From positions 1 to 63,729 of the forward strand of contig CAIXCY010000082.1 of assembly GCA_903918045.1 (NCBI GenBank): a DNA stretch of 63,729 bases, read 5' to 3'. Below, piece after piece: positions 13,120 through 51,470 of this stretch; position 1 is the stretch's first letter; every line of letters begins with the position of its first letter. The notes beneath the pieces were generated by a model. It was given only the letters and a program-made list of their open reading frames with translations, made no database searches and was not told where the DNA came from. Origin of the DNA: an uncultured Bacteroidia bacterium (GTDB lineage: Bacteria > Bacteroidota > Bacteroidia > Bacteroidales > Prolixibacteraceae). The translations under genes and the position numbers were made by a program.

Positions 13120-13130
13120 GCTATTCTTTT

Positions 13131-30478: not shown

Positions 30479-30480
30479 CT

Positions 30481-32061: not shown

Positions 32062-32072
32062 TTCCTGAACTT

Positions 32073-34571: not shown

Positions 34572-35573
34572 TCAATTATTACCGGCCAAAATAATCATGA
34601 TCAATCCACCGGTAAAGAGAATAAACATGAGAGACAATAAAGTATTCACACTTTTAGGAGCGTTTTTGAACTCTTTCCAGATAAATACACCCCAAAGTGC
34701 AGCAATCAGCGTGGCGCCCTGACCCAGACCGTAAGAAATTGCGAAACCTGCTTTGCCAGCCGCAATGATGCTAAGTGACATTCCAACACACCAGATCATT
34801 CCCCCTAAAATTCCGGTAAAGTGTTCCTTCGCACCGCCTTTAAAATATTGAGCGTAAGAGATGGGTGAGCCCTCGAATGGTTTTTTCATCAAAATGGTAT
34901 TGAACACGAAGTTACTTATCAATATTCCGACCGAAAAAATAAATAAGGCAGCATAAGGGGTCAAAAGACCAACCTCTGGATTTTCCATACTTTTTGCCAT
35001 CGAAGCGGCTACAAAACGGTAAAACATAGCCATCAAAACGCCGCCTACAATTGAGATAATGATCCCTTTTGCAGGTACTTTTTGAGACTGAACCGCCTTC
35101 CGTTTATAGGCCAATGCATCAATAACAATTGCAAGGCCTACTAAAGCAACTCCACCAAATAACCATACAGGATTTCCCTGTGGCATTCCGATATAGTTAA
35201 TAATCACACCCAACACCAGTGCAATTCCAATGCCCACCGGAAAAGCCACTGCCATTCCGGCAATTGAAATAGCAGCAACAATCAGGATATTTGCGAGGTT
35301 GAAAATGATACCTCCTGCCAGCGCACTGATAATGCTACCTGAGTCGGCTTGCCTAAGGTTTTGGACAAACCCCATTCCCTGAATTCCACTGCTTCCAAGG
35401 GTAAATCCCAGGATTAGCGAGAAGAGGAGAATTCCCAGGACATAATCCCAATAGAAGAGTTCAAAACGCCAGCTTTTAGCTGCAATTTTCTGCGTGTTTG
35501 CCCATGATCCCCAGCAAAGCATGGTGATGAAACAAAGGACAACTGCAAGTGTGTAACTTCCTACAATAAACAT
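34572..35573 (-). CDS. GRP/RhaT-like sugar permease
   Basis: 333 residues with about ten transmembrane helices, in two EamA-like halves of five. The opening with CWGSWANTQK and the WRFELFYWDYV motif are typical of the glucose/ribose porter (GRP) family and related RhaT-type proteins. It sits at the end of the operon with ribokinase at the front, so ribose is the likely cargo; the same type of permease is used for ribose in the rus locus of Bacteroides. Cargo is inferred from context. Confidence 0.8.
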   Translation of the reverse strand: MFIVGSYTLAVVLCFITMLCWGSWANTQKIAAKSWRFELFYWDYVLGILLFSLILGFTLGSSGIQGMGFVQNLRQADSGSIISALAGGIIFNLANILIVAAISIAGMAVAFPVGIGIALVLGVIINYIGMPQGNPVWLFGGVALVGLAIVIDALAYKRKAVQSQKVPAKGIIISIVGGVLMAMFYRFVAASMAKSMENPEVGLLTPYAALFIFSVGILISNFVFNTILMKKPFEGSPISYAQYFKGGAKEHFTGILGGMIWCVGMSLSIIAAGKAGFAISYGLGQGATLIAALWGVFIWKEFKNAPKSVNTLLSLMFILFTGGLIMIILAGNN

Positions 35574-35605
35574 TTTTTCAAGTTTTAGTTAATATTAATC
35601 GAGAG

Positions 35606-37165
35606 TTATTGATGAAATTTATTTGATACAAATACACAGATCTCAGGTAACCCGGCCAAAAACCACTCAAAGCCCCCAGCACCCTCCCGCACACGGTACT
35701 GGTGTCGGATATCCTTATCGCGAAGCAAGATATGCGCGTTCCCATTACCCTCGTAAAACTTGCCCCTGTCGGGCGAATCAATAAAGATTGCCGTATGTTC
35801 AAGTGCTTTAGGTTTTATTTCTGAAATCAGATTTGAAATGGAGTCATGCGCCAAAAACCCATCGGCTATAATGCAAGAGCTAAATTGCTCCTGATTTAAA
35901 ACCGTGGAAAAGGTTCTTAATGCAGTTTCCTGATATCCTGCCAGAGCACGAAAACGATACCCTTTCCGGATCCTTAATTTTACTTCGAGCTCAGGGAGTT
36001 CCTGTTTAAACTGATCGAAGCTCTTTGCTGTTAGAAATACAACCAACATCGGACATATTTCATCGCTTTCAATCTTTTGATTGATCAATTTGGCAATCCT
36101 ATTCTGTTGAGCTTCCGTGAAATTTCCAGCCAGATACAAAACAGGATATAGCCGGCTCGAGGTTTCATAATCGGCTGGTATGAATGCCTGAACCATCTCA
36201 TTCCTCACATTCAGCTTTAACATCTGTTTTTCGGGCAGGTTAGTTTCAACTGTATTTAACCGAATATCTCCCCGATAGGGTTTTAAATCAAAAGCATCAC
36301 TGATGAAATTAAGGGCATTTGGCAGGCACGAACGCCAGAAAGAAAATTCGTGACCACCTTTTAAAACTCTGAATTCATGTGAATAATTCTTGTTTCTCAA
36401 TAGGATATGCAACTCTTCGTTACTCCGGCAAAGGGTTTGCTCCTCGTCTCCATTGGCGATGTAAATTTTCAATCCACTCAATTTCAATAAATCATTCTGA
36501 GAAAATATCCGGAATGGATTGTTTTGCCTGTAATAATCTGTTATTCTGTCGTTTCCACTTGCTCCCATGCCTCCAAAGATTCGTCCCCACTGCTGATTCC
36601 AGCCCGCAGAATCCTCTTTCATATATTGCTGGTCAGTTCGTATCGAGATGCTTAAAGGAACAGTGGTGCCGAACACCTCGGGATTTTTAAGAGGGAGGAT
36701 CAACGCTCCGAATCCGCCCATCGAATAACCCATCGTTGCCCGGTGCTCACGGTCGGCAATGGTGCGATATTGATTGTCAATCAATGGGATCAGTTCCTGA
36801 ATAAACATATCCTGATACCGGAATGTCCCTGCAAAATCATTCATGTAATAACTGCGGAAGCCCTGAGGCATCACAAAAATCATCGGAATAACCGCCTTTT
36901 CCTGAATTGCTTTGTCCGCAATTTGAGAGATTTGACCATATTCGAGCCACGAAGTTTCGTCATCACCCAATCCGTGAAGCAGGTAAACAACCGGATAGCT
37001 ATTTTTTTCCCGGAAATAATCCCGAGGCAGATAAATGGAATATTTCACTTCTTGCCCAAGAATTTTACTGAAAAAACTCAGGCTTTCCATGATCCTGACA
37101 TCCTGAGCCATTAAGTTGTTCAGGAAAATTAGCAAAACAAAATATGTCGTAAAAAACTTTTTCAT
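35606..37165 (-). CDS. Secreted tandem-domain esterase, second domain inactive (copy B)
   Basis: 519 residues with a signal peptide (about 1-20). Residues about 25-280 form a PF00756-type esterase: VVYLLHGLGDDE (oxyanion region), GYSMGGFGAL (nucleophile Ser), and HEFRVLKGGHEFSFW (catalytic His). Residues about 300-519 repeat the same fold, but the nucleophile region reads AGYQETAL and the final region VREGAGGFEW, so both Ser and His are lost. The second half may bind substrate. Next to a close paralogue, 1 base apart. Carbohydrate O-esterase is the likely activity; in this locus O-acyl groups on ribosides are possible substrates. Confidence 0.85.
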   Translation of the reverse strand: MKKFFTTYFVLLIFLNNLMAQDVRIMESLSFFSKILGQEVKYSIYLPRDYFREKNSYPVVYLLHGLGDDETSWLEYGQISQIADKAIQEKAVIPMIFVMPQGFRSYYMNDFAGTFRYQDMFIQELIPLIDNQYRTIADREHRATMGYSMGGFGALILPLKNPEVFGTTVPLSISIRTDQQYMKEDSAGWNQQWGRIFGGMGASGNDRITDYYRQNNPFRIFSQNDLLKLSGLKIYIANGDEEQTLCRSNEELHILLRNKNYSHEFRVLKGGHEFSFWRSCLPNALNFISDAFDLKPYRGDIRLNTVETNLPEKQMLKLNVRNEMVQAFIPADYETSSRLYPVLYLAGNFTEAQQNRIAKLINQKIESDEICPMLVVFLTAKSFDQFKQELPELEVKLRIRKGYRFRALAGYQETALRTFSTVLNQEQFSSCIIADGFLAHDSISNLISEIKPKALEHTAIFIDSPDRGKFYEGNGNAHILLRDKDIRHQYRVREGAGGFEWFLAGLPEICVFVSNKFHQ

Positions 37166-37166
37166 C

Positions 37167-38786
37167 TTATAAACCCTTCAATTTTAGGGATAAATAAAAC
37201 AGCGACTGATTAAGCCCGTTTATCGTGGATTGCAACGAAGCTGTCCCTTGCCTTACCCGGTATTCGTATGTATTTCCACTATTTCTGATGTCAACAAAAA
37301 GATCGAAATTGCTCTGGTAAAAGTCTGACTTATCGGTTACATCAACATAATAAAAAGCTCCGGGAATTGCCTGAGTATTAACGGGAAGATTCGCATTAAA
37401 CAGGAAAAAGCCATTGAAAACGGTCTGGAATCCTGAAATCAGGTTGCAAACAGCTGCACCACCTTGCTCATTTCCGATGAGAATCTTCCCTTTCTGATCA
37501 CTCACAAACCGGTAGTTGGTTGTAGTCTGACTGATTATTTTTGTCAAAATATCGCTGGTTATTGCTGCTGAACTTTCGGGAATTTCAACGATTATTGAAT
37601 TTGGAATTGTACCTGCAACCATACTGGTGTTCAAAAAGGACAATACTTTGGTGGCATTATCGGTCCGTGAAGCACCAGTAAAATCGTTTATCCAAAAAAT
37701 TACAGGATAGGAATTAGTGTTTGAATTGTAATCAACCGGTTTAAAAATTCCTAACTGAACGTCAGTTCCGTTGAGGTTTTCCAAAGAATATTGGTTCGGA
37801 TTAATTAAATTTCCGACACTGACCGGATCCGGATTTTCGGGATATTTTTTGCCTGAAAAACCATAGCTGATGAATTTCAATGCTTCGGGAAGTGCCGGAT
37901 GCCAGTATTCCCAGTTATGGCCACCGTTTCGAACGCGGAATTCATGCGGTATCTTACGGTCGCGCATCAGGTTGTGGAGTGTTCCGTTGGTAATGTGTAG
38001 CGACTCCTCGTCGTCTCCGCAATCCATCAATATTTTTAGTCCTGAATATTTTGACAGGTCAGGCTGATCGAAGAAATGGAAAGGGCTCAGCAGTTTAAAA
38101 AAATCTGTTAACCGACCCTGACCTGACATTCCAAAGCCTCCAAAAATAGAGCCCCACTGACTGTTGAAATTACTTTGGGATTCAGCCATATATTGCATAT
38201 CCGTACGGAACGACATGCTTAGCGGAACCCCGATGTTGAAAACCTCTGGATGCATCGCCGGTAAAATCAAAGCCCCGTAGCCACCCATTGAATAGCCCAT
38301 CACTGCGCGGGATTGCGGATTCTTTTTGGTCCGGTAAAGCTTGTCTATCTCGGGCACAAGTTCATAAGCAAAGAAATTCATGTACGGATAACTACCGTTG
38401 TACCGATTTACGTAGTAGGAGTTGAATCCCTGAGGCATTACAAATATCATTGGCCCATTTACCGCCACGTCTTTATCCGAATAATACTGAATCAAACCGC
38501 CCCCTACCCACGCAGACTGATTATCTCCAAAACCATGAAGCAGGTAAACTACCGGAAACGAATCTTTTGAGGTTGAATAGTTTTCTGGTAATAAGACTTC
38601 GTAATTAATTGTACTATTGAGTAACCGGCTATTTACGGATTCATTCTGATGCAAGCGGACAAAAGGCTTTTCCGGTTCTTTCGGAATATCGGGCGTTTTA
38701 GAACAACCGATGAAGCCCCATAAAAGGATTCCAACCAATACTATCCGCAGTGGTGTGAATCTGAATATATTTAAAATAATTTTCAT
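37167..38786 (-). CDS. Secreted tandem-domain esterase lipoprotein, second domain inactive (copy A)
   Basis: 539 residues. Signal peptide with lipobox (FIGCSK near 28). The first domain has VVYLLHGFGDNQ, GYSMGGYGAL with the nucleophile Ser near 153 and RVRNGGHNWEYW with the catalytic His. The second domain (about 320-539) is a diverged copy: the nucleophile elbow reads GNEQGG (Glu in place of Ser) and the His region reads VRQGTASLQ. It is a paralogue of the following gene with the same architecture, so the pair arose by duplication of a two-domain ancestor. Likely surface or periplasmic carbohydrate esterase in the ARH/SusCD operon. Confidence 0.85.
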   Translation of the reverse strand: MKIILNIFRFTPLRIVLVGILLWGFIGCSKTPDIPKEPEKPFVRLHQNESVNSRLLNSTINYEVLLPENYSTSKDSFPVVYLLHGFGDNQSAWVGGGLIQYYSDKDVAVNGPMIFVMPQGFNSYYVNRYNGSYPYMNFFAYELVPEIDKLYRTKKNPQSRAVMGYSMGGYGALILPAMHPEVFNIGVPLSMSFRTDMQYMAESQSNFNSQWGSIFGGFGMSGQGRLTDFFKLLSPFHFFDQPDLSKYSGLKILMDCGDDEESLHITNGTLHNLMRDRKIPHEFRVRNGGHNWEYWHPALPEALKFISYGFSGKKYPENPDPVSVGNLINPNQYSLENLNGTDVQLGIFKPVDYNSNTNSYPVIFWINDFTGASRTDNATKVLSFLNTSMVAGTIPNSIIVEIPESSAAITSDILTKIISQTTTNYRFVSDQKGKILIGNEQGGAAVCNLISGFQTVFNGFFLFNANLPVNTQAIPGAFYYVDVTDKSDFYQSNFDLFVDIRNSGNTYEYRVRQGTASLQSTINGLNQSLFYLSLKLKGL

Positions 38787-38800
38787 TAGCGTTAGGTATA

Positions 38801-40372
38801 TTAATAAGGCTTAACAGGGTTAGCGGGCGAATCAGCATAAACCACATACGATTTCATGGTTATCCTAAAATCGGGATTTTGATTTATCCATCTGATTTCC
38901 AGTTTGTGGTCACTGTTTGCCAGCATGTACTTATAAAAAATATCATACTTACGGACGATGTAATCGTAAGGCATCTTCACCTGTTCAACTTTTACTCCAT
39001 CAATATAGACATCGAGCAGAGCCACAAAATCACTTTTTGCAACTCCACACTGACTTTTCACATTTCCCAAAACCACAATTCCGTTTCCGGTAAAATCAAT
39101 TTTTATACTTTCGTCGAGAAAATCCTTCCGCACCAGAAGTTCATAAGTTGGATACATCCCTCCGAATGATTGTTCAGACTTTACTGTTTCGGGTTTTTGG
39201 ATATTAATCGTGATTTGCCCGTTTGTCAGTTCCCCCCCATTTTGAAGTATTAGTTTAAGTGCATGTTTACTGCTTAAGGCGTAAATCTGATTCAATGTCA
39301 AATCGCTATAAGGGAATTTTAAATTCTGGACCATCTCAATGGCGGGTTTCCAGAAGGGAGGAATTTTATCATAACCCAGGATGGCACCAAGGATACCGGC
39401 ACACACAGCAGGATTGCTATCTGAATCCTGCCCACATCGTGTTGTGATATTGATTGTTTGGAAGAAATCCTTCTTCCCGTACAAAAGTCCCATAACCACA
39501 TAGGCTGCATTGACACTTGCATCAATATTGATTGCATTATAGGCACCTTCAGGGCACCCAACTTCGGAGGTATGGCTCTTTTCAAATTCGAACCAGCATT
39601 GTTTCCAATCGTTGGGATATTGATTATGCCATTTGATTACATCGCTTATTGCGCTATAGAACTTACTTTTCTCAGGAATAGATTTTAAGGCATGAGAAAC
39701 AATGAAGTCTACATTGTCAGAAATAAATGCTGTTGAATACATTGCTGCCACAAAAACGCCACCATACCAACCGTCCCCTGAATTCGTGATATGACCAACA
39801 CGATCGCAAATCTCTGAGGATGCATTGATCATCCCTGGAGACATCAAGCCGATAAAATCGGCTTCTATCATAAAATCAATATCATTTGCATGAGGGTTAT
39901 TCATCCAGTTTCCTGATGCGGGCGGCATCATTCCGTTCAAAATATTGTAGCGGGCTGCCTGATTGGCATGCCAGAGCTTAAAATCATGATGTGCAAAGGA
40001 GTTTGCAAAAGAGTCTGCCGGGGCATTGAATCCATATTTCTCAAGGACCTCAACAAATGTCAAATCCATATAGACATCGTCGTAAAGTCCTGGATCTGAA
40101 ATGAATAAATCTTTAATATAATTATCATACCAGACAATCTTCTGATAATCATGGATCATGGTACCTTTAAACTGAAATTCAGTTGGTCCCCCAAAAGTGC
40201 ATCCGATTGTTTGACCGGCCCAGCCCCCTTTAATTTTGTCCTGTAAAGAACTCAATGAAAGCGTAACTTTTTCAGGGAGTTGCGAACCCAGCTTTTGGTC
40301 TTTACCATATAAGGAAGAGGCAAAAACAGCAAGGGCTAATGTCGACAGGATATAAAGTGTTCCTTTTTTCAT
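38801..40372 (-). CDS. Secreted ADP-ribosylglycohydrolase-family protein (copy 3)
   Basis: 523 residues with a signal peptide (about 1-23). The ARH fold begins KIKGGWAGQTIG near 45. Metal-site candidates are LYDDVYMDLTF near 100 and CGQDSDSNPAVCAGILGAILG near 290; ARH enzymes bind two Mg2+ through such Asp pairs. A C-terminal beta domain (about 370-523) has no named match. ARH proteins split ADP-ribose from proteins, or related glycosidic bonds, and are normally cytoplasmic; here the signal peptide puts it in the periplasm or outside. It is a close paralogue of the next gene upstream (40381). Confidence 0.85.
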   Translation of the reverse strand: MKKGTLYILSTLALAVFASSLYGKDQKLGSQLPEKVTLSLSSLQDKIKGGWAGQTIGCTFGGPTEFQFKGTMIHDYQKIVWYDNYIKDLFISDPGLYDDVYMDLTFVEVLEKYGFNAPADSFANSFAHHDFKLWHANQAARYNILNGMMPPASGNWMNNPHANDIDFMIEADFIGLMSPGMINASSEICDRVGHITNSGDGWYGGVFVAAMYSTAFISDNVDFIVSHALKSIPEKSKFYSAISDVIKWHNQYPNDWKQCWFEFEKSHTSEVGCPEGAYNAINIDASVNAAYVVMGLLYGKKDFFQTINITTRCGQDSDSNPAVCAGILGAILGYDKIPPFWKPAIEMVQNLKFPYSDLTLNQIYALSSKHALKLILQNGGELTNGQITINIQKPETVKSEQSFGGMYPTYELLVRKDFLDESIKIDFTGNGIVVLGNVKSQCGVAKSDFVALLDVYIDGVKVEQVKMPYDYIVRKYDIFYKYMLANSDHKLEIRWINQNPDFRITMKSYVVYADSPANPVKPY

Positions 40373-40380
40373 AAAGTGAG

Positions 40381-41988
40381 CTATTGCGGTAAATTATTTT
40401 TGGGTCTGTTTTCGGAATAAATGATTATGTCATTAATCCTGATTTCATAATGACTATCGGGATTTAGCCATTTAAGCCTGACATTATGCATGCCTTCGTT
40501 CAGCTGGTATTTCCATGCTGGTTCAAGCCTGCGGGAACTGTTTTTCATTGGCATCTTTATATTCTCATCCAGTTTGCCATCAATGAACACTTCCAGTTCA
40601 GCAACGTAGGTATCGTCAGGTTCAGCCAGCCCAAAAACCTCAGATCCCACCCTTTTGGAGACACGATCGATATAATCCTTATCGATTTTCGAAGTCTTCA
40701 CCAGATTCCCGTAGAAAATATAGCCATTCCCAACAAAGTCGTATGAAAGCTCATCTGTAAATGAGCGGTCATACCGATCCCGGAAGGTTGGAAAAGTTTT
40801 ATCAAAATTTTGCTCAAACTTAACAGGAACAGGTTCCACAAATGGAATTACAACCTTTTCCCCATCGATGGTTCCGCCGGCGAGCTTAATCATCCCCAGG
40901 GCGTGCTTCAGGCTTAAGGAATATGCATTATTCAGGCATACTGTGGTTCCTTCAAAATTTAACGGTTCAATCTCCTGCAAGGGTGTGAGCCAGAAGGCTG
41001 GAATTCTTGAATACCCCAGCATGACGCCAAGTATCCCCCCAACAGACGCCGGATTGGAATCGGCATCCTGACCACATCTGACCGTAATATTCAAAGATTT
41101 CGTAAAGTCACCATTGCCATATAACAGGCCAATGACATTATAAGCGGAATTTATTTTTGCGTCAATATTAAACGATAAAAACACACCTTTAGGGCAACCA
41201 ACATCGTTATTCCATTTTTTCTGAAGTTCAAACCAGGTTGTCTGCCAATCAGCCGGATACTGATTATGCCATTTAATGACATCGGCAATACAATCATGAA
41301 ATTTTGTTCCGAGGGGAATTGTCTTCAGTGCCTGATTCACAATTTCATTCACATCGTTTGAGACAAATGCAAGCGAATACAAGGCAGAGATAAAGACCCC
41401 ACCATACCAGCCATCACCACTGTTCATAATATGACCGACACGATTCGCAACCTCGGTGGCAGAATTCACCATTCCCGGGGTCATCAGTCCGATAAAGTCT
41501 GATTCAATCTGAAAATCTATATCATCTGCATGGGGATTATTTTTCCAGTATCCCGAATTTGGGGGCATGATACCATTCAAAATATTATACCTCGAAGCCT
41601 GGTTTGCATGGGCCAGATGATAGGCTGTTCCTGCCCAGTGATGGGCTATAGTATCCATCGAAACATTTAATCCGTACTTTTCGAAAACATCCACAAAATT
41701 TAAGTCGGTATAAATATCATCAAACAGTCCGGGCTTTTTGTCAAACCAGTATTTCACATAACCCTCGCGCCAAGGTATATTTTGATAATCAGGGATGATC
41801 GATCCCTGGTATTTGAATTCTACAGGCGCCCCATAAACGACACCAATTGTCTGGCCAGCCCAGCCCCCTTTGATTTTATCCTGAAGCTGATCTTTGCTTA
41901 TAATGTTTTGCTTTGCAAAAGCGGAAAAGCTCTGAAGGCAAAATGCAATTACCAGACATCCCAGGATATTTTTGATCAAATATTGCAT
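40381..41988 (-). CDS. Secreted ADP-ribosylglycohydrolase-family protein (copy 2)
   Basis: 535 residues with a signal peptide (about 1-25). The same opening KIKGGWAGQTIG, the Asp-rich LFDDIYTDLNF and the second metal-site CGQDADSNPASVGGILGVMLG as copy 3. The C-terminal beta domain also matches copy 3. The canonical first metal site of human ARH enzymes is DDT-like; here the Thr is displaced, so the substrate range may differ. 8 bases upstream of copy 3 in the operon, and 168 bases downstream of copy 1, where I see no clear promoter. Confidence 0.85.
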   Translation of the reverse strand: MQYLIKNILGCLVIAFCLQSFSAFAKQNIISKDQLQDKIKGGWAGQTIGVVYGAPVEFKYQGSIIPDYQNIPWREGYVKYWFDKKPGLFDDIYTDLNFVDVFEKYGLNVSMDTIAHHWAGTAYHLAHANQASRYNILNGIMPPNSGYWKNNPHADDIDFQIESDFIGLMTPGMVNSATEVANRVGHIMNSGDGWYGGVFISALYSLAFVSNDVNEIVNQALKTIPLGTKFHDCIADVIKWHNQYPADWQTTWFELQKKWNNDVGCPKGVFLSFNIDAKINSAYNVIGLLYGNGDFTKSLNITVRCGQDADSNPASVGGILGVMLGYSRIPAFWLTPLQEIEPLNFEGTTVCLNNAYSLSLKHALGMIKLAGGTIDGEKVVIPFVEPVPVKFEQNFDKTFPTFRDRYDRSFTDELSYDFVGNGYIFYGNLVKTSKIDKDYIDRVSKRVGSEVFGLAEPDDTYVAELEVFIDGKLDENIKMPMKNSSRRLEPAWKYQLNEGMHNVRLKWLNPDSHYEIRINDIIIYSENRPKNNLPQ

Positions 41989-42156
41989 CTTCTACTTTAA
42001 ATTAAACTTGAAAACAATTTAAATATTCTATTATTGGCAGTTTAGTATGGCCCAGCAGCATACATTGCATAAAAACAGTAATCCCGGAGAGTTGCAAAGA
42101 AATTATGCTAAGGTTATTGAAGCCTGATCCACAACCTGACATTTTATCTCATTTAA

Positions 42157-44145
42157 TTAATTATAAACACTCAGTTCAGTTACCGAAGAAAATCCGGAAA
42201 CCTGTTTGGTAAATTTATGCCAGTGATCCTGTATTTTAGTATCGCCAATGATCCGGATAGCTCTGGTCTCTACTGTCGGAAAACTGATTACATATTCCAC
42301 AAAATGTGGCTGAAAAAACACAATATCAGTTGATGGTAAAGGGGGTGTAATGGAAATATCTTCAACAGGGCTCCATTTACCCGCTTCGTTCATATATTGA
42401 ATATTGAGTGAGGTAAACCACCCTCCGAACTCCTCTAGGCATCCGGTATGAAGAGCAACCATACTGATCTTTTGCGGTGTTTTCCATCCATAGCCATAGT
42501 AATCAACTTTAGGAATGTTTGATTTGGCGGCAAGGCTATAAAATACGGAGCCTGCACCGTTTGTTTTTCCGTCGTTCAGAATATTTACGTTTTGGGCATA
42601 CATCGGTTTCCCGAAAGTAATCCAGCAGGAATCGAGCACAGCCTTATTCAGCTGCCGCACATTGGACAGAATGGTATCGGCTTTAAAGGCTATATTCTGG
42701 CTGCGGACCAGCAAATTAAAATCGTGTGTAATCTTCTCTTTCCCATTGCTGAGTTGAAGCGTAATCTTTGAATTTCCGGACTCTTTAGGAATCCCCAGGA
42801 GTTTTCCATTTGTAAACGACAAACCTTCAGGAAGCTTTCCGGAAATCAGGCGCCAGTTATAGATTTGATTTGCCTGAGTGAAAAAGTTGTAATCAACCGG
42901 TTTACCTGTTTCCATCACGGGAAGTGGCCCGATGCAAAATTCGAGCGGAGGATTAAATATCGCATCGGGATTTATTGTCAGCACTTCGCTACCTGAATTT
43001 CCTGAGAGTTTACCCCCTTTCATGACTACAAGCTCGATTGTTGATTTCAAGGTCTGGTCAATTATTTCCGAAATTTTGCCATCAGGCATATCATATCGGG
43101 TGATGTTCACATATTTGTTATTAAAGGGCGTTTCCCAACCCTTTATCGGTAAATACAGGTTGGCTGGTAAAGCCTTGAAGCCGTTTATGACACCCAGTAA
43201 TCCTGCGATTGTTGCCGCCTGATTATCGCAATCAAAACCGATGGCACACGCCAGATCAAGCGTATGCTGGAAATTTCCTTCCCCATACAGCATCGCCAGG
43301 ACTGCACAGGCACCGTTAAGATTGGCATTCCAGACAGTTTTGGTCATTTCAGGCTCATTGGTATAATATATCCGGGCCATCTCTTTTCGGGCACTTTTCC
43401 AATCATTGGGATATTTCACATACAAGGCAATCATGTCTCTTGCTGTACCTTGAAAGCGGCCATTTGCGGGTAAAGCTTTCAGTCCAATTTCAATCAGTTT
43501 TCGGATATCCTTTTCGAAATAGGCGGCCGAATACATGGCGCCATAAAAGATTGTCGGTTCAACACCCCAGTCATCACTGGTGATTCGGGCAGCCCAGTCC
43601 GATTTTGAAGCTGCATAGTTTACCATGCCAGGTGCTGTCACTCCCCAGATTTCATTAATCAATTGAGGGTCGATCTGGAACCAATGGGGGTTCAGGGCTT
43701 TGTTTCCGGTAAAAGGAGGCGTGTATCCGAAATGCATCAGCCCCAGAGCAGCCCTGTTGGCCAGCCAAATCCGATCGCGGATATGGTACATCCAGGCATC
43801 ACAGAGTTGTGAGTAGCGCGGCTCCGGCCCAAATTTTTGCATCTCAAGAAGGTACATGTATTCTACATCTGTATCGTCATCCGAGAACGCTCCGTCACAT
43901 TTTTGAAGTTTATCAAGGCTTTTGCTGTAACCATAGGGCCAATTCTCTGCTCCGGGTTCGGCAATATATTTGCATTCATGTGGTAAGCCATACATGTTGC
44001 CAATCAACTGACCAATCCATTCGCCAGCGATTTTATCGCGCAATTCGCTGATTTTTATTTTGCAAGGCTTCTTTCCATCCGACAGGAAAGGAAGTAATAC
44101 CAGTACAAAAGCAATAGAAAATGAGTTGGTTATTTTTCTTAACAT
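42157..44145 (-). CDS. Secreted ADP-ribosylglycohydrolase with Ig-like domain (copy 1)
   Basis: 662 residues with a signal peptide (about 1-24). The ARH domain opens ELRDKIAGEWIGQLIG, with the Asp cluster GAFSDDDTDVEYM near 89 and the second site AIGFDCDNQAATIAGLLG near 310. An Ig-like domain (about 415-485, PEGLSFTNGKLLGIPKESG) and a further beta domain ending with a discoidin-like AIRIIGD follow. It is more diverged from copies 2 and 3 than they are from each other. It overlaps the SusD stop codon by one base, so it is tightly coupled to SusD. Confidence 0.85.
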   Translation of the reverse strand: MLRKITNSFSIAFVLVLLPFLSDGKKPCKIKISELRDKIAGEWIGQLIGNMYGLPHECKYIAEPGAENWPYGYSKSLDKLQKCDGAFSDDDTDVEYMYLLEMQKFGPEPRYSQLCDAWMYHIRDRIWLANRAALGLMHFGYTPPFTGNKALNPHWFQIDPQLINEIWGVTAPGMVNYAASKSDWAARITSDDWGVEPTIFYGAMYSAAYFEKDIRKLIEIGLKALPANGRFQGTARDMIALYVKYPNDWKSARKEMARIYYTNEPEMTKTVWNANLNGACAVLAMLYGEGNFQHTLDLACAIGFDCDNQAATIAGLLGVINGFKALPANLYLPIKGWETPFNNKYVNITRYDMPDGKISEIIDQTLKSTIELVVMKGGKLSGNSGSEVLTINPDAIFNPPLEFCIGPLPVMETGKPVDYNFFTQANQIYNWRLISGKLPEGLSFTNGKLLGIPKESGNSKITLQLSNGKEKITHDFNLLVRSQNIAFKADTILSNVRQLNKAVLDSCWITFGKPMYAQNVNILNDGKTNGAGSVFYSLAAKSNIPKVDYYGYGWKTPQKISMVALHTGCLEEFGGWFTSLNIQYMNEAGKWSPVEDISITPPLPSTDIVFFQPHFVEYVISFPTVETRAIRIIGDTKIQDHWHKFTKQVSGFSSVTELSVYN

Positions 44146-45668
44146 TATTGCATTGGAGGATTTTGAACCAGGTTTATATTTGCACTTAAAACAGTAGCAG
44201 GAATAGGGAATAGCTTTGCTCCCGGGCCTGAAGAAGGTTTATTCCACCAGGCATTTCCCCACACTCCAAAACGAATCATATCCTGACGACGATGCCCTTC
44301 CCAAGCGAATTCCCGTCCAAGTTCATCCAGCAATCCACTTGCGGTTAAGTCGGCAACTGTCAATGGAGCTAATCCGGCTCTGGTTCTGATTTTTTGCAGA
44401 TCAGGGTTGTTCAGCATTTCGCCGGCGCGGTTTAACCGCCATAATGCCTCAAGTTTAGTATAGAGGACATCAGCATACCGGAAAAGGACAAAGTCGTTTG
44501 CCATATCGGTAACGTAGTATTCCAAACCATCCTGATATTGATATTTGCAGCAACGGGCACCCTCCCATTTTTTCCTCGCCATGTAGTTGGCCACTGTTGA
44601 AGTATAAATAAAAGGGACGCCGTCAATGATAATGTCATTGCCGTTTTTATCTTTTTGCTGCCCGAAAAGAAATGACTTTTTACGAAGGTCATTGTTACTA
44701 AACTTATCAAGAAAGCCGGGTTCGAGGATAAACTCATCCCACATTCCCCCTTTAAAACCGAACGTAGCGCGGCTGGCATCATTAAGGGTCAGCGTATACC
44801 AATAAAAATGATCCTTTGTTAAGACGGATTCCATTGGAATTACAAAAATATTCTCAGCAGAACTTTCGTTTTGAACCATGAAATTAGTGAAAAAATCATC
44901 TTCAATATGATAGCTCCCCAGGGCGATTACTTTATCGCAGGCATCAACGGCCTTCTGATTTTCGTCTACTCCAATCCATTCCTGCGCATTGAGGTATAGT
45001 TTAGCCAGCAAAGTATAGGCCATTCCCTGAGTAACCCGTCCATAATATTGGGTGGTTGGTTTATCCTCCAGTTTACTGATGTTGCTGAGGATTTCAGTTT
45101 CAATTGCTGCAAAAACAAACTTTCTGTCTTTTTGAAGCGGCAAACTTTTATTGGTGTAATCCAGGGTAAACGGAATATTTCCCCAATTATCCATCGCCCA
45201 ATAGTAGTAGTAGGCACGCAGGATCTTTACTTCGGCAACCACCTGATCTTTTGCAGGAAAAGTAATTGGTGACTGTTCCGTTTCATAAATCACTTCGTTA
45301 CAACCACTGATACCTTCGAATACATTGGCCCATGCCAGGCCAAGGATCTTATTTGTAGGACTTACCTGATGCTTTTGAATATCATTCCATCGTCCGTTAT
45401 CCCAAACCAAACCATCGTCGCGGCCGGGAGCAACCATCTCATCTGAAGCAAGTTCCCCTAATGACCATAAACTGAATTCTTCAGTGAACTTCTGTAATTT
45501 GGCATATGATCGCCCTGCATTCATTAATACATCTTTTTCGGTATGAAAAAAACTGTCAAGGGGTATATCCGAATAGACTTTTTCGTCAAGGTTGGTGCAT
45601 GCGCCTATTGTTATAGCAGTGGCCAGTAATAGGGAACGATATATATTTTTCTTTTCCATGATTGACAA
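44145..45668 (-). CDS. susD: SusD/RagB-family outer-membrane lipoprotein
   Basis: 507 residues with lipobox (IGACTN near residue 20). The SusD family order is present: an N-terminal region with KVYSDIPLDSFFHTEKD, TPR-like helices (ILRAYYYYWAMDNWG near 150) and the C-terminal RLNRAGEMLNNPDLQKIRTRAGL and WEGHRRQDMIRFG motifs. It captures ligand at the cell surface and closes on the SusC channel. Directly after SusC, 11 bases apart, and overlapping the first ARH gene. Confidence 0.95.
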   Translation of the reverse strand: MSIMEKKNIYRSLLLATAITIGACTNLDEKVYSDIPLDSFFHTEKDVLMNAGRSYAKLQKFTEEFSLWSLGELASDEMVAPGRDDGLVWDNGRWNDIQKHQVSPTNKILGLAWANVFEGISGCNEVIYETEQSPITFPAKDQVVAEVKILRAYYYYWAMDNWGNIPFTLDYTNKSLPLQKDRKFVFAAIETEILSNISKLEDKPTTQYYGRVTQGMAYTLLAKLYLNAQEWIGVDENQKAVDACDKVIALGSYHIEDDFFTNFMVQNESSAENIFVIPMESVLTKDHFYWYTLTLNDASRATFGFKGGMWDEFILEPGFLDKFSNNDLRKKSFLFGQQKDKNGNDIIIDGVPFIYTSTVANYMARKKWEGARCCKYQYQDGLEYYVTDMANDFVLFRYADVLYTKLEALWRLNRAGEMLNNPDLQKIRTRAGLAPLTVADLTASGLLDELGREFAWEGHRRQDMIRFGVWGNAWWNKPSSGPGAKLFPIPATVLSANINLVQNPPMQ

Positions 45669-45679
45669 TGTGTTAACAA

Positions 45680-48643
45680 TTAAAATGAAACATTGAGGCC
45701 AAAAGAGATCACCGTAGTTTTGGGATAATAGCTTAGATTCTCAATCCCGGGTGTGAGTCCACTCAGGCTTACTTCCGGATCCAATCCTTTATATTTTGTC
45801 AGGCAGAAAACATTTTGAGCCGTTGCAGAAACCCTGAGTTTAGCAATGTATTTACTGACGTGCCTAAAATTGTATCCAAATGAGATATTATCGAGTTTAA
45901 GGAAGGTAGCGTCTTCCAAATATTTTGATGAATATTGCCCATTACCGATAAATTCGGGATGTTGAAGCTGCGTGTATACGATGTTTTGCCCAATACTCTG
46001 CCAGTTTTCGTAATACAACCGGTACATATTAAGCGCTTTACCCCCCACTTGTGAACGAAATGAAAAGTTAAGGTCCAGGTTTGTATAGGTAAATGAATTG
46101 CTCCACCCTAAAATAAACTTTGGATTTGCATTGCCTATTGGTTCCCATTTGTCGGGACTAACTTGTCCTACTGGGTTTTGGTTTTTAAATTTATCATGTC
46201 CACTGGCATCAACGCCCAGCCATACAGGACCATAAAAGGTTCCGATAGCTTGTCCTTCTGATAATTTCTGGCAATTAAGTGGAAATGAACCCCCTAGCCA
46301 TCCGATGTCTATCGATTTATTGGTAAATTCAGAATTCGAGAATTTTACCAATTTATTCACATTCTTGCTAAATGTAAGTGTAGTATTCCATGCAAACTGA
46401 GCTTTTTTTACTACTACTGCATTCACTGTGAGTTCTACTCCCTGATTGCTTATTGTGCCAACATTGGTAAAAAACTGGTCGGTTAGATAGGGTGGAGCTG
46501 AAACTGTAAAAGTATAGAGCAGATCAGTACTGGAACGATAATAATAGTCGAATGCACCTGTTATCCGACCTTTCAGGATTCCAAAGTCAAGTCCTGCATT
46601 AAACTCCTGCTTCTTTTCCCAGCGGAGGTTTGGATTTGGATTTGTTTTCGGTCCATAAGTGTTAATCCATTGTCCGTTATACAAAATACTGGAGTTCAAT
46701 TTCCGTTGCATTAATATCAATGACTGATAATCGGCAAAATCCTGATTGCCGGTAACTCCAAATCCGACACGGAGTTTAAGATCACTCACCCAATTTACAC
46801 GCTTCATGAATTCTTCGCGGTTAATTCGCCAGCCCAGACTTGCAGCCGGAAACCAACCCCATTTATTGTTTGCTCCAAAACGCGATGATCCCTCCCTGCG
46901 GATTGAAGCAGATGCAAGAAAGCGTTCGTCAAAATTGTACATGACCCGGCCGAAAAATGAAATCAGCTGACTTTGATATTTATCAGAACCCATTCCAGCC
47001 GTTCCAATTGCAAGAGCTGAACCGGCACCTATATTATTCACCCCATAATAATCAAAATCGAATCCGGAATTGCTCATATAGGAATCGTTATATAGGGTCT
47101 TCTGGTAGGAATAACCTCCAAGAGCCTGTATGGTATGCTTTCCGATATTGGTGGTATAATTTAGCGTACTTTCATAAAGCAGGTCCGATTGTCGTCCATT
47201 TTCGATTGTCGCAGTTCCACTTGTCCCAATATGGCTTGGATAATATTTGGTCATGTAATCATTACTCTCCCAATCAGAAAGGGTGTAGGATAAAAAATTC
47301 GCCCATTTCAGGGATGAGGAGAGTTTTAACGTCGCACGGATATTCCCGATTGCATCATTGGTTTTCCCTTCCCGTGAACGTTCTTTTACCATTGCAACCG
47401 GGTTATAAAAATCGGCTCCCGGCAAATAGGTATAACCGCCATAAGTTGAATTTGACGGGTCATAAACCGGGCTTGTCGGATTACGGATAAATGCCTGCCG
47501 GAACACATCGTAGTTAGCCGGATTGTATGTCCGAACTCCGTAGGATAGGTTATAATCAAGTGTCAGCAAATTATCCAGCGCCTTTTGAATCACATTGGTC
47601 TTTATGAGGACATTATCAGCCTGATTATTATTCAGTAAACCTTGTGCCTGATTTACAAAAATTGTAGTCCGGTGCGAAATCGATTCGCTTCCTCCTGAAA
47701 TCGCCAGATTGTGTTGTTGGCTAAAAGGAGCTGGCCGGGTAATTTCTTTAAACCAGTTTACATTTCCACTGTAAATATTCGAAACCTTGTCAGGGGCATA
47801 AGTTTTAATCGCAGATGAAAATTGATCAGCTGTCAGATTCTTAACTCCGCGGGGATTAACTTGTGCCGATAACTGGCCTGAATATTCCACCTGACTTTTA
47901 CCATACCTGGCACGCTTTGTGGTAATGATTATTACGCCATTCGACCCGCGTGTACCATAAATTGCAGCTGCAGATCCATCTTTTAGCACATCTATCGATT
48001 CCACTTCATCCGGACTGATGTTTCTCAAATCAGCACCTGCAACTCCATCAATGATAATGAGTGGTCCTTGTCCTGAGGTAAGGGTATTGGTACCACGAAG
48101 AATAATTTCATACTTTGCCTGAGGATCAGCGCCATTTGGATTCACGATACTCAATCCGGCAACCTTTCCTTGTAATAACCCCATTGGATCATTAAAAACA
48201 CCCTTATTAAAATCCTTCGTCTTTACCGTTGATATTGATCCGGTAATCTCTTTTTTAGTTGTGCTTCCATAACCAATTACAACCACTTCATCGAGGGATG
48301 CAACCGATGCTTTAAGTTGAATCTGAACCACTTGATTCTTTGAAACGATCATTACCGTGGGTTCATATCCAATAAAGGAAAATTCCAATCTTGCTCCCCT
48401 GGTAACTTCAATACTGAACTTTCCAGCTAAATCAGTTACTGTTCCAACGGATGTCCCCTTGGATATGACACTTACACCAGGAAGGAATTCATTAGTTGTG
48501 GCATCCTTAATGGTTCCGCTTATCTGAATTCTTCCGGCAGTTTGCCCATTTAAATCTGGTAAGATAAATACGAAAAGTAGGATAAGAAGTGCAATGAGGG
48601 CACTTTTAGTTCCCGAATATTCGCCAATAGATCTCTTTTTCAT
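45680..48643 (-). CDS. susC: SusC/RagA-family TonB-dependent outer-membrane transporter
   Basis: 987 residues. Signal peptide, then a carboxypeptidase-regulatory-like domain (about 35-120), the TonB-box region DEVVVIGYGSTTKKE, a plug domain with SIDVLKDGSAAAIYGTRGSNG and a 22-strand barrel ending in the C-terminal VSF. Energised by TonB, it imports the ligand bound by SusD. It lies 18 bases after ribokinase and belongs to the same operon. Confidence 0.96.
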   Translation of the reverse strand: MKKRSIGEYSGTKSALIALLILLFVFILPDLNGQTAGRIQISGTIKDATTNEFLPGVSVISKGTSVGTVTDLAGKFSIEVTRGARLEFSFIGYEPTVMIVSKNQVVQIQLKASVASLDEVVVIGYGSTTKKEITGSISTVKTKDFNKGVFNDPMGLLQGKVAGLSIVNPNGADPQAKYEIILRGTNTLTSGQGPLIIIDGVAGADLRNISPDEVESIDVLKDGSAAAIYGTRGSNGVIIITTKRARYGKSQVEYSGQLSAQVNPRGVKNLTADQFSSAIKTYAPDKVSNIYSGNVNWFKEITRPAPFSQQHNLAISGGSESISHRTTIFVNQAQGLLNNNQADNVLIKTNVIQKALDNLLTLDYNLSYGVRTYNPANYDVFRQAFIRNPTSPVYDPSNSTYGGYTYLPGADFYNPVAMVKERSREGKTNDAIGNIRATLKLSSSLKWANFLSYTLSDWESNDYMTKYYPSHIGTSGTATIENGRQSDLLYESTLNYTTNIGKHTIQALGGYSYQKTLYNDSYMSNSGFDFDYYGVNNIGAGSALAIGTAGMGSDKYQSQLISFFGRVMYNFDERFLASASIRREGSSRFGANNKWGWFPAASLGWRINREEFMKRVNWVSDLKLRVGFGVTGNQDFADYQSLILMQRKLNSSILYNGQWINTYGPKTNPNPNLRWEKKQEFNAGLDFGILKGRITGAFDYYYRSSTDLLYTFTVSAPPYLTDQFFTNVGTISNQGVELTVNAVVVKKAQFAWNTTLTFSKNVNKLVKFSNSEFTNKSIDIGWLGGSFPLNCQKLSEGQAIGTFYGPVWLGVDASGHDKFKNQNPVGQVSPDKWEPIGNANPKFILGWSNSFTYTNLDLNFSFRSQVGGKALNMYRLYYENWQSIGQNIVYTQLQHPEFIGNGQYSSKYLEDATFLKLDNISFGYNFRHVSKYIAKLRVSATAQNVFCLTKYKGLDPEVSLSGLTPGIENLSYYPKTTVISFGLNVSF

Positions 48644-48661
48644 AATTGCTTGGTTTAATAA

Positions 48662-49576
48662 TTATTCAATTAAAGACAATTCAGAATAATAAGGGAGAGA
48701 ACTTTGGGCCCCCATGCGGGTTACGGTGATTGCAGAAGCCTTAACAGCAAACTTTACCGAATCGAGAAGTGATTTTTGATTTGCCAGCCCAACACATAAC
48801 GATCCGCAGAAGGTATCACCCGCAGCAGTTGTATCAACGGCTTCAACAATATGGGCAGGAACTAAATGATAGGTGCTCCTCTCCAGAATGAGAGCTCCTT
48901 GAGAGCCCAGCGTAATTACCACATTGTCAACGCCTTTTTTAGAAATCAGATCAGCTGCCTTTTTGGCTGATTTTGCATCAGTAACTTTTATTCCGGATAA
49001 AATTTCGGCTTCACTTTTGTTTGGCACAATGATATCAATATGGCGAAGCAGCGAATCAGACAGAGCTTGTGCAGGTGCAGGATTGAGGATAACCATTTTC
49101 CCTTTTAATGCGCCAAGTTGTGCCACATATTCCACTGTTTCAATCGGTATCTCCAGCTGCATTAAAATGATATCTGCCGATTCAATGGCTTTCATTGCTT
49201 TGTCAATATCCTTAGGTTTCAAATTGCCATTGGCGCCTGAGGCGACAACAATGCAATTCTCCCCCATCGAATCAACAGTAATTAATGCAACGCCGGATGG
49301 AAGCTTGGAATCGGAAAAGATAAATTCCGTATTTATGTTTTCTGAATTGTAAAGTACCACAGATTGTTTACCAAATAAATCATTTCCCGTTTTTGAAATC
49401 AAGGTAACATCTCCGCCTAAACGGGCAGCTGCAACTGCCTGATTGGCCCCTTTCCCTCCGGAATTCATCAGGAAAGTACCCCCCAGAATAGTCTCTCCTG
49501 GAACCGGTAGTCGCTCGGCCTTTATGACCATATCGGTATTACAACTTCCTACAACAACAATTTTTTTTGGGTGCAT
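48662..49576 (-). CDS. rbsK: Ribokinase
   Basis: 304 residues, the PfkB/ribokinase family. Visible are the substrate-binding NSGGKGANQAVAAARLGG near residue 38, the anion hole and base AAGDTFCG near 251 (catalytic Asp) and NPAPAQAL near 180. It phosphorylates ribose to ribose 5-phosphate. It is the first gene of the operon with SusCD and the ARH genes. The ATG lies inside a long inverted repeat at 49571-49607 and I see no good Shine-Dalgarno sequence. Confidence 0.92.
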   Translation of the reverse strand: MHPKKIVVVGSCNTDMVIKAERLPVPGETILGGTFLMNSGGKGANQAVAAARLGGDVTLISKTGNDLFGKQSVVLYNSENINTEFIFSDSKLPSGVALITVDSMGENCIVVASGANGNLKPKDIDKAMKAIESADIILMQLEIPIETVEYVAQLGALKGKMVILNPAPAQALSDSLLRHIDIIVPNKSEAEILSGIKVTDAKSAKKAADLISKKGVDNVVITLGSQGALILERSTYHLVPAHIVEAVDTTAAGDTFCGSLCVGLANQKSLLDSVKFAVKASAITVTRMGAQSSLPYYSELSLIE

Positions 49577-49607
49577 AAGATTTACATTTTTTTGTAAATG
49601 TATGCAC
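49571..49607 (-). promoter_or_regulatory. Inverted repeat covering the ribokinase start codon
   Basis: GTGCATA (49571-49577) pairs with TATGCAC (49601-49607), and ATTTACA (49580-49586) pairs with TGTAAAT (49593-49599), leaving a 6-base loop and a small internal bulge. The ribokinase ATG (49576-49574) is in the outer stem. It could hide the start codon in the mRNA, or be a DNA site for a regulator. Confidence 0.7.
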
Positions 49608-49922
49608 TCAGGAATTTGATAAAATTCAATAATTGCGATAAAACAATAATTCTAAAAACACTTAAATCTATAAAACATTAAACTCTAAATACTAATTTAT
49701 TGTATGTTATAAGTATTTCATGTATTTATATTTTCACTAAAAATAATAATTTCAAACACTATTATTAAAAAATCAATTTAGAATTGGATTACATTAAGGG
49801 AATAGAAAACCGTGTTTAAACCATCTTTTAGAATAATCCTAAATATATTTATTACTTTGGTGAACTGAAACAAACCATATTTTCCGAGGGATTCAATAAA
49901 TACTGTAATTTCAAGTTGAAAA
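49608..49922. other. Divergent regulatory region between the riboside operon and its putative regulator
   Basis: About 315 very AT-rich bases without a gene. They must hold promoters for both directions, but I see no full consensus match; a near match (TTACTTTG) faces right near 49853. Apart from the hairpin at 49571-49607, no repeat or operator stands out. Confidence 0.45.
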
Positions 49923-51470
49923 ATGTCAAAACTTCAATCACTTGTTACCCTAATCCATTCCATGTCTTTAGCCGAAAAAAAGGCATTCAGGGTCCGGTCA
50001 TTAGGAAACCGGGCCAAATCGAATTACCTTGTTTTGTATGATATCATAGAGAATAACAGTGGGCTCCAGACCTCCCAGTTAGTATCCAGATTTCTCAAAG
50101 ACAGACCTTTAGCCTCAAGTGAAACAACCATTAAATACCTCTACGAATTGTTGCTGGATTCGATGCTTGATTTGAGAAAGGAACAGGACAGTTTCTTTTC
50201 ATTATTCAATAAAATACTGAAAACAAGAATCTTATATGAAAAATCGCTGTTTGATGAATGTTTCGATTTACTTGAAGAAATTATCAGGCAGGCAGAGAAA
50301 TACGAAAACTATTTTGCCTTGTTGCTTGCCTTACGACTGGAAATGGATTATCTGCTGGCACTTAATTTTCCAGGTTTGAATGAAAAATCACTTTTGAAAA
50401 AGCAGTTTAAGCTCAATGAAGCCTTAAAATATGTCAGAAAAATAAATGAACAATCATCTCTTTACGAAAATCTAAAACACCGTATCGGTCTTAAAGGACA
50501 TATCCGTTCTCAAAAGCAAAAGGACGAATTAAATGATTTGGTTTATAGTGAAATCAGTATCGTGGCTTCTATGAATCTGGACAACTTTGAGATTAGCAAG
50601 CTTCACCAACTGTTTCAATCCAACTATTTAATTAGTGTAGGAGATTATAAATCTGCACTAAATTCCTATATCGAATTGAACACGCTTTTTGAGTCGAACA
50701 AGCACTTATGGAGTAATCCTCCGATTTACTATGTTCAAACTGTTGAAGGGGTGCTTGAGAGCCTTCGGAGTATTCGCAATTACGATGGAATGACATATTT
50801 TATAAATCAGTTGAAAATAATTGATAGTCGGTCCGCAGATTTCAGAATTAACCTTTCCTGCATAACCTTCCTATATGAGTTATTTCCGTATATTGATCAG
50901 GGGTATTTTGATTCAGCCTTAGTACTGATGAACAATTACAAGGAGACCGTCTACGCCAAAATGGATGCACTTAACAGGGCCAGGCAGGCCGAACTCTGCC
51001 TCTATACTTCATTGATTTATTTTGGAAATCTGGAATTCCATAAAGCCCATAAATTTCTGAATCAAATCATTCTTCAAGGAAAAAATTACTACGATCTTCC
51101 GTTATATCGAACAATTCGCCTTGTTAACCTTCTGATTTTATTTAAACTGGAAGATTTCGACCTGATTGATTCCGAGATCCGGACAATGAAACGCAATTTA
51201 AAGGATACGGCTAATGATTACAAGATTGAACGGTTTCTGTTTAGGTTTTTAAGTAATCAACTTCCAACCATTGAACATAAAAGGAAGAAACTTCTCGATA
51301 AGACGATGATTGAAATAAATGAATTACATCACTCCGGATATGAGAAACAAATTCTGAGGATATTCGATTTCACGGCCTGGGTTGAATCACTTATCCGAAA
51401 GGTTTCGTTATCTGAAGTACTCCATAACCGTATAAATATTAATAATAATCCGAACCAAAACTTACCTTAA
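49923..51470 (+). CDS. Large helical protein at the regulator position of the riboside operon
   Basis: 515 residues, nearly all helical by eye, with no signal peptide. The N-terminus (about 1-85, with KAFRVRSLGNRAKSNYLVLYD) is basic and could be a DNA-binding helix-turn-helix; the rest resembles TPR-like repeats. No standard regulator domain is recognisable. It is transcribed divergently from the ribokinase-SusCD operon. A protein of similar character sits at this position in the rus ribose locus of Bacteroides and is thought to be its regulator; the link here is by position and general form only. Confidence 0.6.
   Translation: MSKLQSLVTLIHSMSLAEKKAFRVRSLGNRAKSNYLVLYDIIENNSGLQTSQLVSRFLKDRPLASSETTIKYLYELLLDSMLDLRKEQDSFFSLFNKILKTRILYEKSLFDECFDLLEEIIRQAEKYENYFALLLALRLEMDYLLALNFPGLNEKSLLKKQFKLNEALKYVRKINEQSSLYENLKHRIGLKGHIRSQKQKDELNDLVYSEISIVASMNLDNFEISKLHQLFQSNYLISVGDYKSALNSYIELNTLFESNKHLWSNPPIYYVQTVEGVLESLRSIRNYDGMTYFINQLKIIDSRSADFRINLSCITFLYELFPYIDQGYFDSALVLMNNYKETVYAKMDALNRARQAELCLYTSLIYFGNLEFHKAHKFLNQIILQGKNYYDLPLYRTIRLVNLLILFKLEDFDLIDSEIRTMKRNLKDTANDYKIERFLFRFLSNQLPTIEHKRKKLLDKTMIEINELHHSGYEKQILRIFDFTAWVESLIRKVSLSEVLHNRININNNPNQNLP

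Follow-up and report, generated by a model that had tools for sequence, protein, structure and literature searches.

A rus-type SusCD locus with three ADP-ribosylglycohydrolase-family proteins and citrate-lyase-like genes, possibly serving a substrate that yields ribose and a tricarboxylate

Introduction

The rus (ribose utilization) loci are an already known route by which Bacteroidota scavenge ribose. As reported in a regulon analysis, the ribose polysaccharide utilization locus (PUL) of Bacteroides thetaiotaomicron comprises BT2803-2809 and is controlled by RusR (PMC12596196). We describe here a locus whose sequence places it in the rus type, found in an uncultured Bacteroidia bacterium of the Prolixibacteraceae (GenBank assembly GCA_903918045.1, contig CAIXCY010000082.1, positions 1 to 63,729); this whole stretch of 63,729 nucleotides is referred to as the window. 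BT2802 is RusR, and the B. thetaiotaomicron rus locus includes two ribokinases and a nucleoside hydrolase, the latter being variable in other rus loci. ADP-ribosylglycohydrolases (ARHs) are reportedly mentioned for some rus variants in the primary rus paper (Glowacki, 2020).

The window has in common with the B. thetaiotaomicron locus a RusR homologue, a ribokinase (RusK), a SusC/SusD pair and a GRP-type permease (RusT). It differs in having three proteins with a putative ARH fold (ARHa, ARHb and ARHc), two esterases (EstA and EstB), a DUF4595-like lipoprotein (LpD) and citrate genes (CitDE, a CitD-CitE fusion, and CitF), whereas it has no nucleoside hydrolase and one ribokinase rather than two. 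Rus loci with a single ARH (that of Parabacteroides distasonis, which we designate L008, and L174 and L215) share with it RusR, RusK, RusT and an ARH that is nearest to ARHc; the GQDxDxNP motif, too, is shared by the L008 ARH. No SusCD, esterase or citrate genes were labelled in these single-ARH loci, and a nucleoside hydrolase is found in L008 and L174. The L008 record (NZ_OY725755.1, P. distasonis "plasmid 10") carries genes for a ribokinase, an ARH, a nucleoside hydrolase and a GRP transporter, plus fumC; this plasmid-labelled record may be a chromosomal piece.

The window's ARHs resemble ARH1, ARH3 and DraG in the fold predicted for ARHa and ARHb and in two metal-site Asp pairs, but they are probably exported, carry extra C-terminal domains and altered residues beside the Asp pairs, and ARHa and ARHb are only 10-17% identical to solved ARHs. 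With citrate lyase (CitDEF) systems the locus shares a CitF above the family cut-off, CitD and CitE domains and, in relatives, CitMHS or DASS transporters; unlike in the usual systems, CitD and CitE are fused, CitE is below its cut-off and the genes are embedded in a ribose locus. A literature search for ARHs in PULs or beside citrate lyase, to which the primary rus paper was out of reach, found no such system described.

Results

The locus includes an operon of about 20 kb on the minus strand, with nine genes in the order RusK-SusC-SusD-ARHa-ARHb-ARHc-EstB-EstA-RusT followed by four more (LpD, CitDE, CitF and the gene of a major facilitator superfamily (MFS) permease) that reach down to position 29237; a RusR gene lies divergently beside it (Table 1). 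An earlier note on this DNA had named the nine genes, and profile searches found all of them, with the strand (minus), the sequence of genes and the family identities that it gave. Their spacing was also as described, with gaps of 1-32 bases and a single exception of 168, save that only one of two reported overlaps was counted (SusD/ARHa, 1 base). Beyond RusT, the further genes are separated by 56 and 145 bases or overlap by 40 and 4. Both the RusR gene, which lies within the region that the note covered, and the four genes down to 29237 had been overlooked.

We assign the locus to the rus type on the basis of the RusR gene beside the operon and of a ribokinase, SusC/SusD and a RusT-like permease within one operon. 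The P. distasonis nucleoside hydrolase found no match in the 80 related loci, and we do not treat this gene as defining because some other rus-type loci (L173, L175 and L215) are also without one. The kinship with Bacteroides rus loci that had been proposed is thus borne out, and the RusR homologue makes it firmer than gene content alone; the idea of a SusCD operon supplying ribose to a ribokinase is likewise supported. The RusR gene has no Pfam match at E 0.001 and one match in its own genome. Among 295 sampled genomes of the order, 12 match RusR with an E value of at most 1e-70; six of them, the window's included, have the three-ARH type of locus, and the other six carry one ARH or a nucleoside hydrolase, the two together, or none of these. 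The BT2802 family is large: in a sample of the phylum, 98 of 395 genomes have distant matches to it (E ≤ 0.001), two of which are over the cut-off.

Relatives were taken as the best 80 of 507 ARHb matches in genome contigs, and their genes were labelled by scoring against the window's proteins, many of the loci being cut by contig ends. As far as record labels tell, they come from Bacteroidota, including Flavobacteriaceae, Cyclobacteriaceae and Chitinophagaceae. The gene set is found together again in the 80 related loci, and the arrangement is thus not due to chance. The whole order from RusR through RusK to RusT is present in 26 of them and all three ARHs are labelled in 69. Labels were assigned to ARHb in 78 loci, ARHa in 76, ARHc in 75, SusD in 74, SusC in 71, RusT in 68, EstB in 65, RusK in 64, EstA in 56, LpD in 49, CitDE in 12 and CitF in 11. 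The LpD label was given by phmmer at E 1e-3, which missed cases recognized through DUF4595 in L068 and L079 (over the cut-off) and in L084 (below it). RusR is labelled in 32 loci, and wider stretches show it upstream in L040 and L078 as well; a LacI-type regulator replaces it in L070, L079 and L082 (three of three tested), the other loci without RusR being cut short.

Some relatives depart from the common arrangement. ARHa and ARHb are fused in one frame each in L082 (8078-11602, 1174 codons) and L084 (8000-11530, 1176 codons), L033 has no ARHa between SusD and ARHb, and RusT is relocated in loci with the order RusK-RusT-SusC, several of which come, by record label, from rumen or gut genomes; the three loci with a LacI-type regulator are of this kind. 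The locus is also carried by the cultured species Gelidibacter salicanalis and G. japonicus (L050 and L051). Two genes close to related loci may be recorded: a Glyco_hydro_106 gene between the lipoprotein and CitDE genes in L012 (18684-20642; 11500-13458 in stretch L199), and a His_Phos_2 (histidine phosphatase branch 2) gene downstream of L077 (18581-19990).

All three ARHs score over the PF03747 cut-off. AlphaFold models were built for ARHb from an alignment of 34 sequences (pLDDT 82.9) and for ARHa from one of 39 (pLDDT 88.2), and both are predicted to have the ARH fold. With Foldseek, the top matches of the ARHb model were ARH3, ARH1, DraG and bacterial ARHs at 10-16% identity; the ARHa model matched the same family at 10-17% and, in addition, CBM32 modules of sialidases and other glycosidases. 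The C-terminal part of ARHa also has Pfam matches to Ig and F5/8 type C domains, both below cut-off. A sequence search of the PDB gave one short ARH match for ARHb and no ARH match for ARHa. Two Asp pairs are invariant in each protein (D90 D91 and D308 D310 in ARHb, 34 sequences; D89 D90 and D305 D307 in ARHa, 39 sequences; D98 D99 and D316 D318 in ARHc, 35 sequences), and we take them to be metal ligands, as in work on ARH3. The residues beside these pairs are altered. A reference ARH of the same genome (L002) has the motifs FTDDT and GGDTDT, with Thr before the first pair and after the second; at the former position ARHb and ARHc have F or Y and ARHa has S, and at the latter ARHb and ARHc have S or C and ARHa has N, so that neither Thr is kept in any of the three.

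The secretion of the ARHs, asserted in the earlier note, appears likely. A crude script for signal peptides and lipoboxes flags all 73 orthologues of ARHa, 73 of the 75 of ARHb and 70 of the 73 of ARHc, and in the window the ARHs, the esterases, SusC and SusD; as it also flags 9 of 65 ribokinase orthologues and the window's CitDE, it is at most a rough guide. The ARHs would be exported hydrolases of ribofuranosidic bonds, a reading that fits better than ADP-ribose removal does. Elsewhere in the same genome, the cluster G000:C116:17193-27408 (3194-13409 in stretch L181) holds another ARH nearest to ARHc (L003), whose neighbours are a GH20 hexosaminidase, a DUF5703 protein with a weak GH95 match, a DUF4434 protein, a metallophosphoesterase and a SASA esterase; ARHs of this kind are thus found in further glycan-type clusters as well. 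When plasmids were searched with another of the genome's ARHs, nothing was returned.

CitDE and/or CitF adjoin the locus in 13 of the 80 related loci. They are downstream in seven, on the same strand in L010, L012, L018, L033, L036 and L046 and on the opposite strand in L032, and upstream of RusK in six (L040, L045, L047, L050, L051 and L078). The window's CitF barely reaches the NCBI equivalog level (TIGR01584, 501.6 bits; cut-off 501.45), and its CitD part falls short of the corresponding model (56.9 bits; cut-off 63.5). Transporter genes accompany the locus in relatives. In 26 of the 80 loci LpD is followed by the gene of a DASS symporter, which couples anion transport to sodium, and wider stretches show a DASS in L040 and L078 also. 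TIGR00785 was above cut-off in seven of seven DASS tested, four of them being the gene of about 495 aa that precedes CitDE in L033, L040, L046 and L078. In L016, L017, L032 and L089 the slot after LpD is occupied by a CitMHS citrate:proton symporter (four of four tested; TIGR00784, 543-560 bits; cut-off 259.7), a fifth CitMHS was found by phmmer after CitDE-CitF in L012 (stretch L199), and the L030 genome has CitDE, CitF and CitMHS together on a small contig. The MFS permease gene adjoining CitF is kept in L010 (stretch L200). Around the RusR of other rus types (L173-L175, L183, L215, L220, L221 and L223-L225), where some stretches are short, no DASS or CitMHS match was found.

Citrate lyase requires CitG and a citrate lyase ligase. 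In the window's own genome, contig C138 carries a second citrate lyase together with CitG and an adjoining citrate lyase ligase domain; the prosthetic-group and activation enzymes are hence available, and these helper enzymes could serve both citrate lyases.

A tree of ARHb was built from the window and 60 fetched loci, hand-picked for a visible slot, and rooted at the midpoint; three loci of the distant group were omitted, L082 and L084 having no separate ARHb and L085 being at a contig end. Its main split separates 42 rows, the window included, from 19, with support of 100 on both sides. In the window's clade a DASS, CitMHS or citrate-lyase gene is present at the locus in 39 of the 41 fetched loci and in the window itself. 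The sister clade is made up, by record labels, of Alistipes, rumen, other Bacteroidales and Paludibacteraceae members. When the citrate versions were scored on this tree (a downstream DASS, an upstream lyase, CitMHS, a lyase paired with MFS, a lyase whose transporter is not in view, or none), eight changes were needed over the whole tree, losses included. The strongest hint that the acid is of importance is that the slot is kept for citrate-type genes of differing kinds. An alternative division into near and distant loci, which departs from the ARHb tree by counting L054 and L056 among the near ones, gives citrate genes in 38 of 42 versus 0 of 20 loci, but was drawn after seeing the data.

CitF was analysed in a tree of 46 rows by a quick method, from which the linked CitFs of L018 and L032 were left out as incomplete frames. 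Eleven of the 12 locus-linked CitFs (those of the window, L010, L012, L033, L040, L045, L046, L047, L050, L051 and L078), from several families, form one group with the CitF of the L030 genome (SH-aLRT 87), and the second citrate lyase of the window's genome is placed far away. Of 49 searched genomes with ARHb, drawn from those of the 80 loci, 40 have a CitF over the cut-off, compared with 40 of 395 sampled genomes of the phylum. We rejected this co-occurrence as a proof standing by itself, the phylum matches over the cut-off being mostly in two families (f18 and f36).

Seven loci from genomes that have CitF and no ARHb match (L184-L190) were inspected, and in five of them a gene of 477-480 aa precedes CitDE. 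In these five (L185 and L187-L190, from f36 and f18) CitDE-CitF comes after that gene, which Pfam identifies as MmgE/PrpD in L185; the arrangement perhaps represents a different acid pathway. In the L019 genome a gene of the oxaloacetate-decarboxylase beta type adjoins an unlinked CitDE-CitF (L192:5857-7209).

Discussion

Since citrate-type transporters and citrate-lyase genes are part of the locus in the window's clade, the likely substrate changes from the ADP-ribosyl conjugates suggested earlier. We give an even chance to the proposal that the locus handles a substrate yielding D-ribose plus a tricarboxylate, most likely citrate; the three ARHs, the two esterases and, in one clade, the citrate module point to a compound with ribofuranose and citrate, an unexpected pairing. 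SusCD would capture the substrate, LpD perhaps acting as an extra surface protein, and ARHa, with its CBM32-like module, together with ARHb and ARHc, all three a probably exported branch of the ARH fold, would cleave ribofuranosidic bonds outside the cell or in the periplasm, while EstB and EstA would strip ester groups (citrate or other acyl). The ribose released would enter through RusT and be phosphorylated by RusK. The acid would be taken up by DASS or CitMHS in relatives, a task that in the window may fall to the MFS permease; once imported, it would be split by CitDE/CitF. RusR would control the operon, presumably in response to ribose. If this proved true, the ARH fold would gain a role in extracellular nutrient breakdown, and the gene products form a short list of candidates with which to find the substrate. 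In its boldest form, the proposal is that the locus consumes a ribofuranosyl-citrate conjugate or polymer which occurs in nature but has so far escaped notice, and that the ARHs are true ribofuranosidases, a new glycoside hydrolase family derived from enzymes that remove ADP-ribose; we offer this tentatively, as possible and somewhat doubtful.

Several observations weigh against a substrate containing citrate. In the sister clade a citrate gene was seen at none of the 19 loci, an absence not proven because four of them are cut by contig ends (L080 and L083 soon after the last operon gene, L056 and L069 on the RusK side); citrate would accordingly not be essential to the ARH set. Within the window's own clade no citrate gene was seen at L023, which is cut on the RusK side, or at L042. 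The CitF of L036 (row L143), although linked on one contig in the order RusT-LpD-DASS-CitDE-CitF, falls outside the common CitF group, beside unlinked CitFs, and CitF also occurs in genomes of the phylum that lack the locus. A CitF over the cut-off is found in 34 of 36 genomes with a citrate gene at the locus and in none of six without (42 genomes, namely the 49 minus those of L011, L014, L028, L030, L044, L055 and L062, whose contigs end before the slot), but the Fisher value of 5e-6 cannot be trusted because the locus citrate trait changes only three times and provides merely 2-3 independent pairs.

The CitE part of the window's fusion scores 252.6 bits with TIGR01588 (cut-off 443.4), and RipC, the lyase of an itaconate pathway, is likewise far below the NCBI CitE cut-off; with CitE so far below, the acid could be another, and citramalate or isocitrate may take the place of citrate. 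DASS symporters also transport dicarboxylates. To our knowledge there is no ribose-citrate substrate that would need SusCD. A literature search for a ribose-citrate substrate found none but a small Streptomyces metabolite, ribocitrin. This dextransucrase inhibitor, whose name joins the two parts, has been tentatively identified in a Streptomyces from freshwater sediment (PMC13136089).

A rival view is that the ARHs are ribofuranosidases for an ester-bearing ribose capsule, O-antigen or exopolysaccharide and that the citrate genes merely form an anion-uptake module next door, retained there because the nutrients co-occur or share control. Ribofuranose and O-acetyl groups are common in the surface glycans of bacteria, and the sister clade has the same kinds of ARH and esterase with no citrate genes seen at the locus. 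Downstream of the operon DASS lies 29 to 422 bases after LpD, a spacing that suggests that it may have its own promoter. We nevertheless judge this explanation rather unlikely, given that a citrate-type gene stands at nearly all loci of the window's clade (39 of the 41 fetched) and that CitDE-CitF immediately precedes RusK in six loci, lying downstream of the operon elsewhere.

ADP-ribose scavenging, in which the ARHs would release ADP-ribose or ribose from ADP-ribosylated protein, poly-ADP-ribose, O-acyl-ADP-ribose or NAD-like compounds and the esterases would remove acyl groups before ribose import, is the substrate assignment of the earlier note, and we found it unsupported. The PF03747 scores of all three proteins, the likeness of the ARHa and ARHb models to ARH1, ARH3 and DraG and the retained Asp pairs do agree with it. 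It is made quite improbable by the low identity to solved ARHs, by the substitution, in ARHb and ARHc, of the Thr preceding the first Asp pair and by the CBM32-like module on ARHa, and it leaves the citrate genes unexplained. Genes to handle the nucleotide part are also few: the P. distasonis nucleoside hydrolase used as query matched none of the 80 related loci, in agreement with the absence noted earlier, and among the few unlabelled genes inside related operons (downstream neighbours scanned in part) there are few candidates for a nucleotidase or phosphatase, the His_Phos_2 gene downstream of L077 being one outside the operon. Finally, a scavenger of nucleoside- or RNA-derived ribose like Bacteroides rus, with ARHs substituting for the nucleoside hydrolase, is very improbable, for although a nucleoside hydrolase, a single ARH or the two together occur in other rus-type loci (L008, L174, L215, L223 and L224), three ARHs, a CBM32-like module and two esterases would exceed the needs of nucleoside use and that same query found nothing.

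Gene coordinates and minor features

Table 1. Features of the locus in the window, with profile scores (PF03747 cut-off, 26.2 bits)
Feature	Position	Strand	Evidence or remark
RusR homologue (BT2802 family ribose utilization protein)	49923..51470	+	divergent; NF058569 641 bits, cut-off 550
RusR-RusK intergenic region	49577..49922	.	both promoters expected here
RusK, ribokinase	48662..49576	-	TIGR02152 375.7 bits, cut-off 299.65
SusC/RagA TonB-dependent outer-membrane transporter	45680..48643	-	TIGR04056 719.7 bits, cut-off 368.25
SusD-like surface lipoprotein	44145..45668	-	PF07980 77.5 bits, cut-off 23.1
ARHa, predicted exported ARH-fold protein with Ig-like and CBM32-like modules	42157..44145	-	PF03747 90.9 bits
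ARHb, predicted exported ARH-fold protein with C-terminal beta domain	40381..41988	-	PF03747 124.5 bits
ARHc, predicted exported PF03747 protein	38801..40372	-	PF03747 137.3 bits
EstB, probable lipoprotein esterase with second hydrolase-like half	37167..38786	-	PF00756 115.7 bits
EstA, predicted exported esterase with second hydrolase-like half	35606..37165	-	PF00756 134.6 bits
RusT, inner-membrane sugar permease of the GRP/ureide-permease kind	34572..35573	-	PF07168 71.3 bits, PF06800 32.3 bits (both above cut-off)
LpD, DUF4595-like lipoprotein	33454..34515	-	PF15283 26 bits, below cut-off 34.2
CitD-CitE fusion (citrate-lyase-like acyl carrier and C-C lyase)	32073..33308	-	PF06857 59 bits, PF03328 161.6 bits
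CitF, citrate lyase alpha subunit	30481..32112	-	PF04223 453.7 bits
MFS permease, possibly for organic anions, overlapping CitF	29237..30484	-	PF07690 166.8 bits

The listed start of SusD is a TTG, an ATG being present three codons further on. The C-terminal halves of EstA and EstB give a weak PF00756 match below cut-off. RusT resembles the "GRP family sugar transporter" of the P. distasonis rus locus and reaches merely 28.2 bits with the NCBI RhaT model (cut-off 319.6). For the MFS permease the top NCBIfam model is TIGR00893 at 143.7 bits, below its cut-off of 395. A scan of positions 29000-36000 for sigma-70 promoters and terminators gave counts at the level of shuffled sequence. Elsewhere in the window, positions 20621-23293 of the minus strand encode a large protein that by eye resembles a secreted alpha-L-rhamnosidase.

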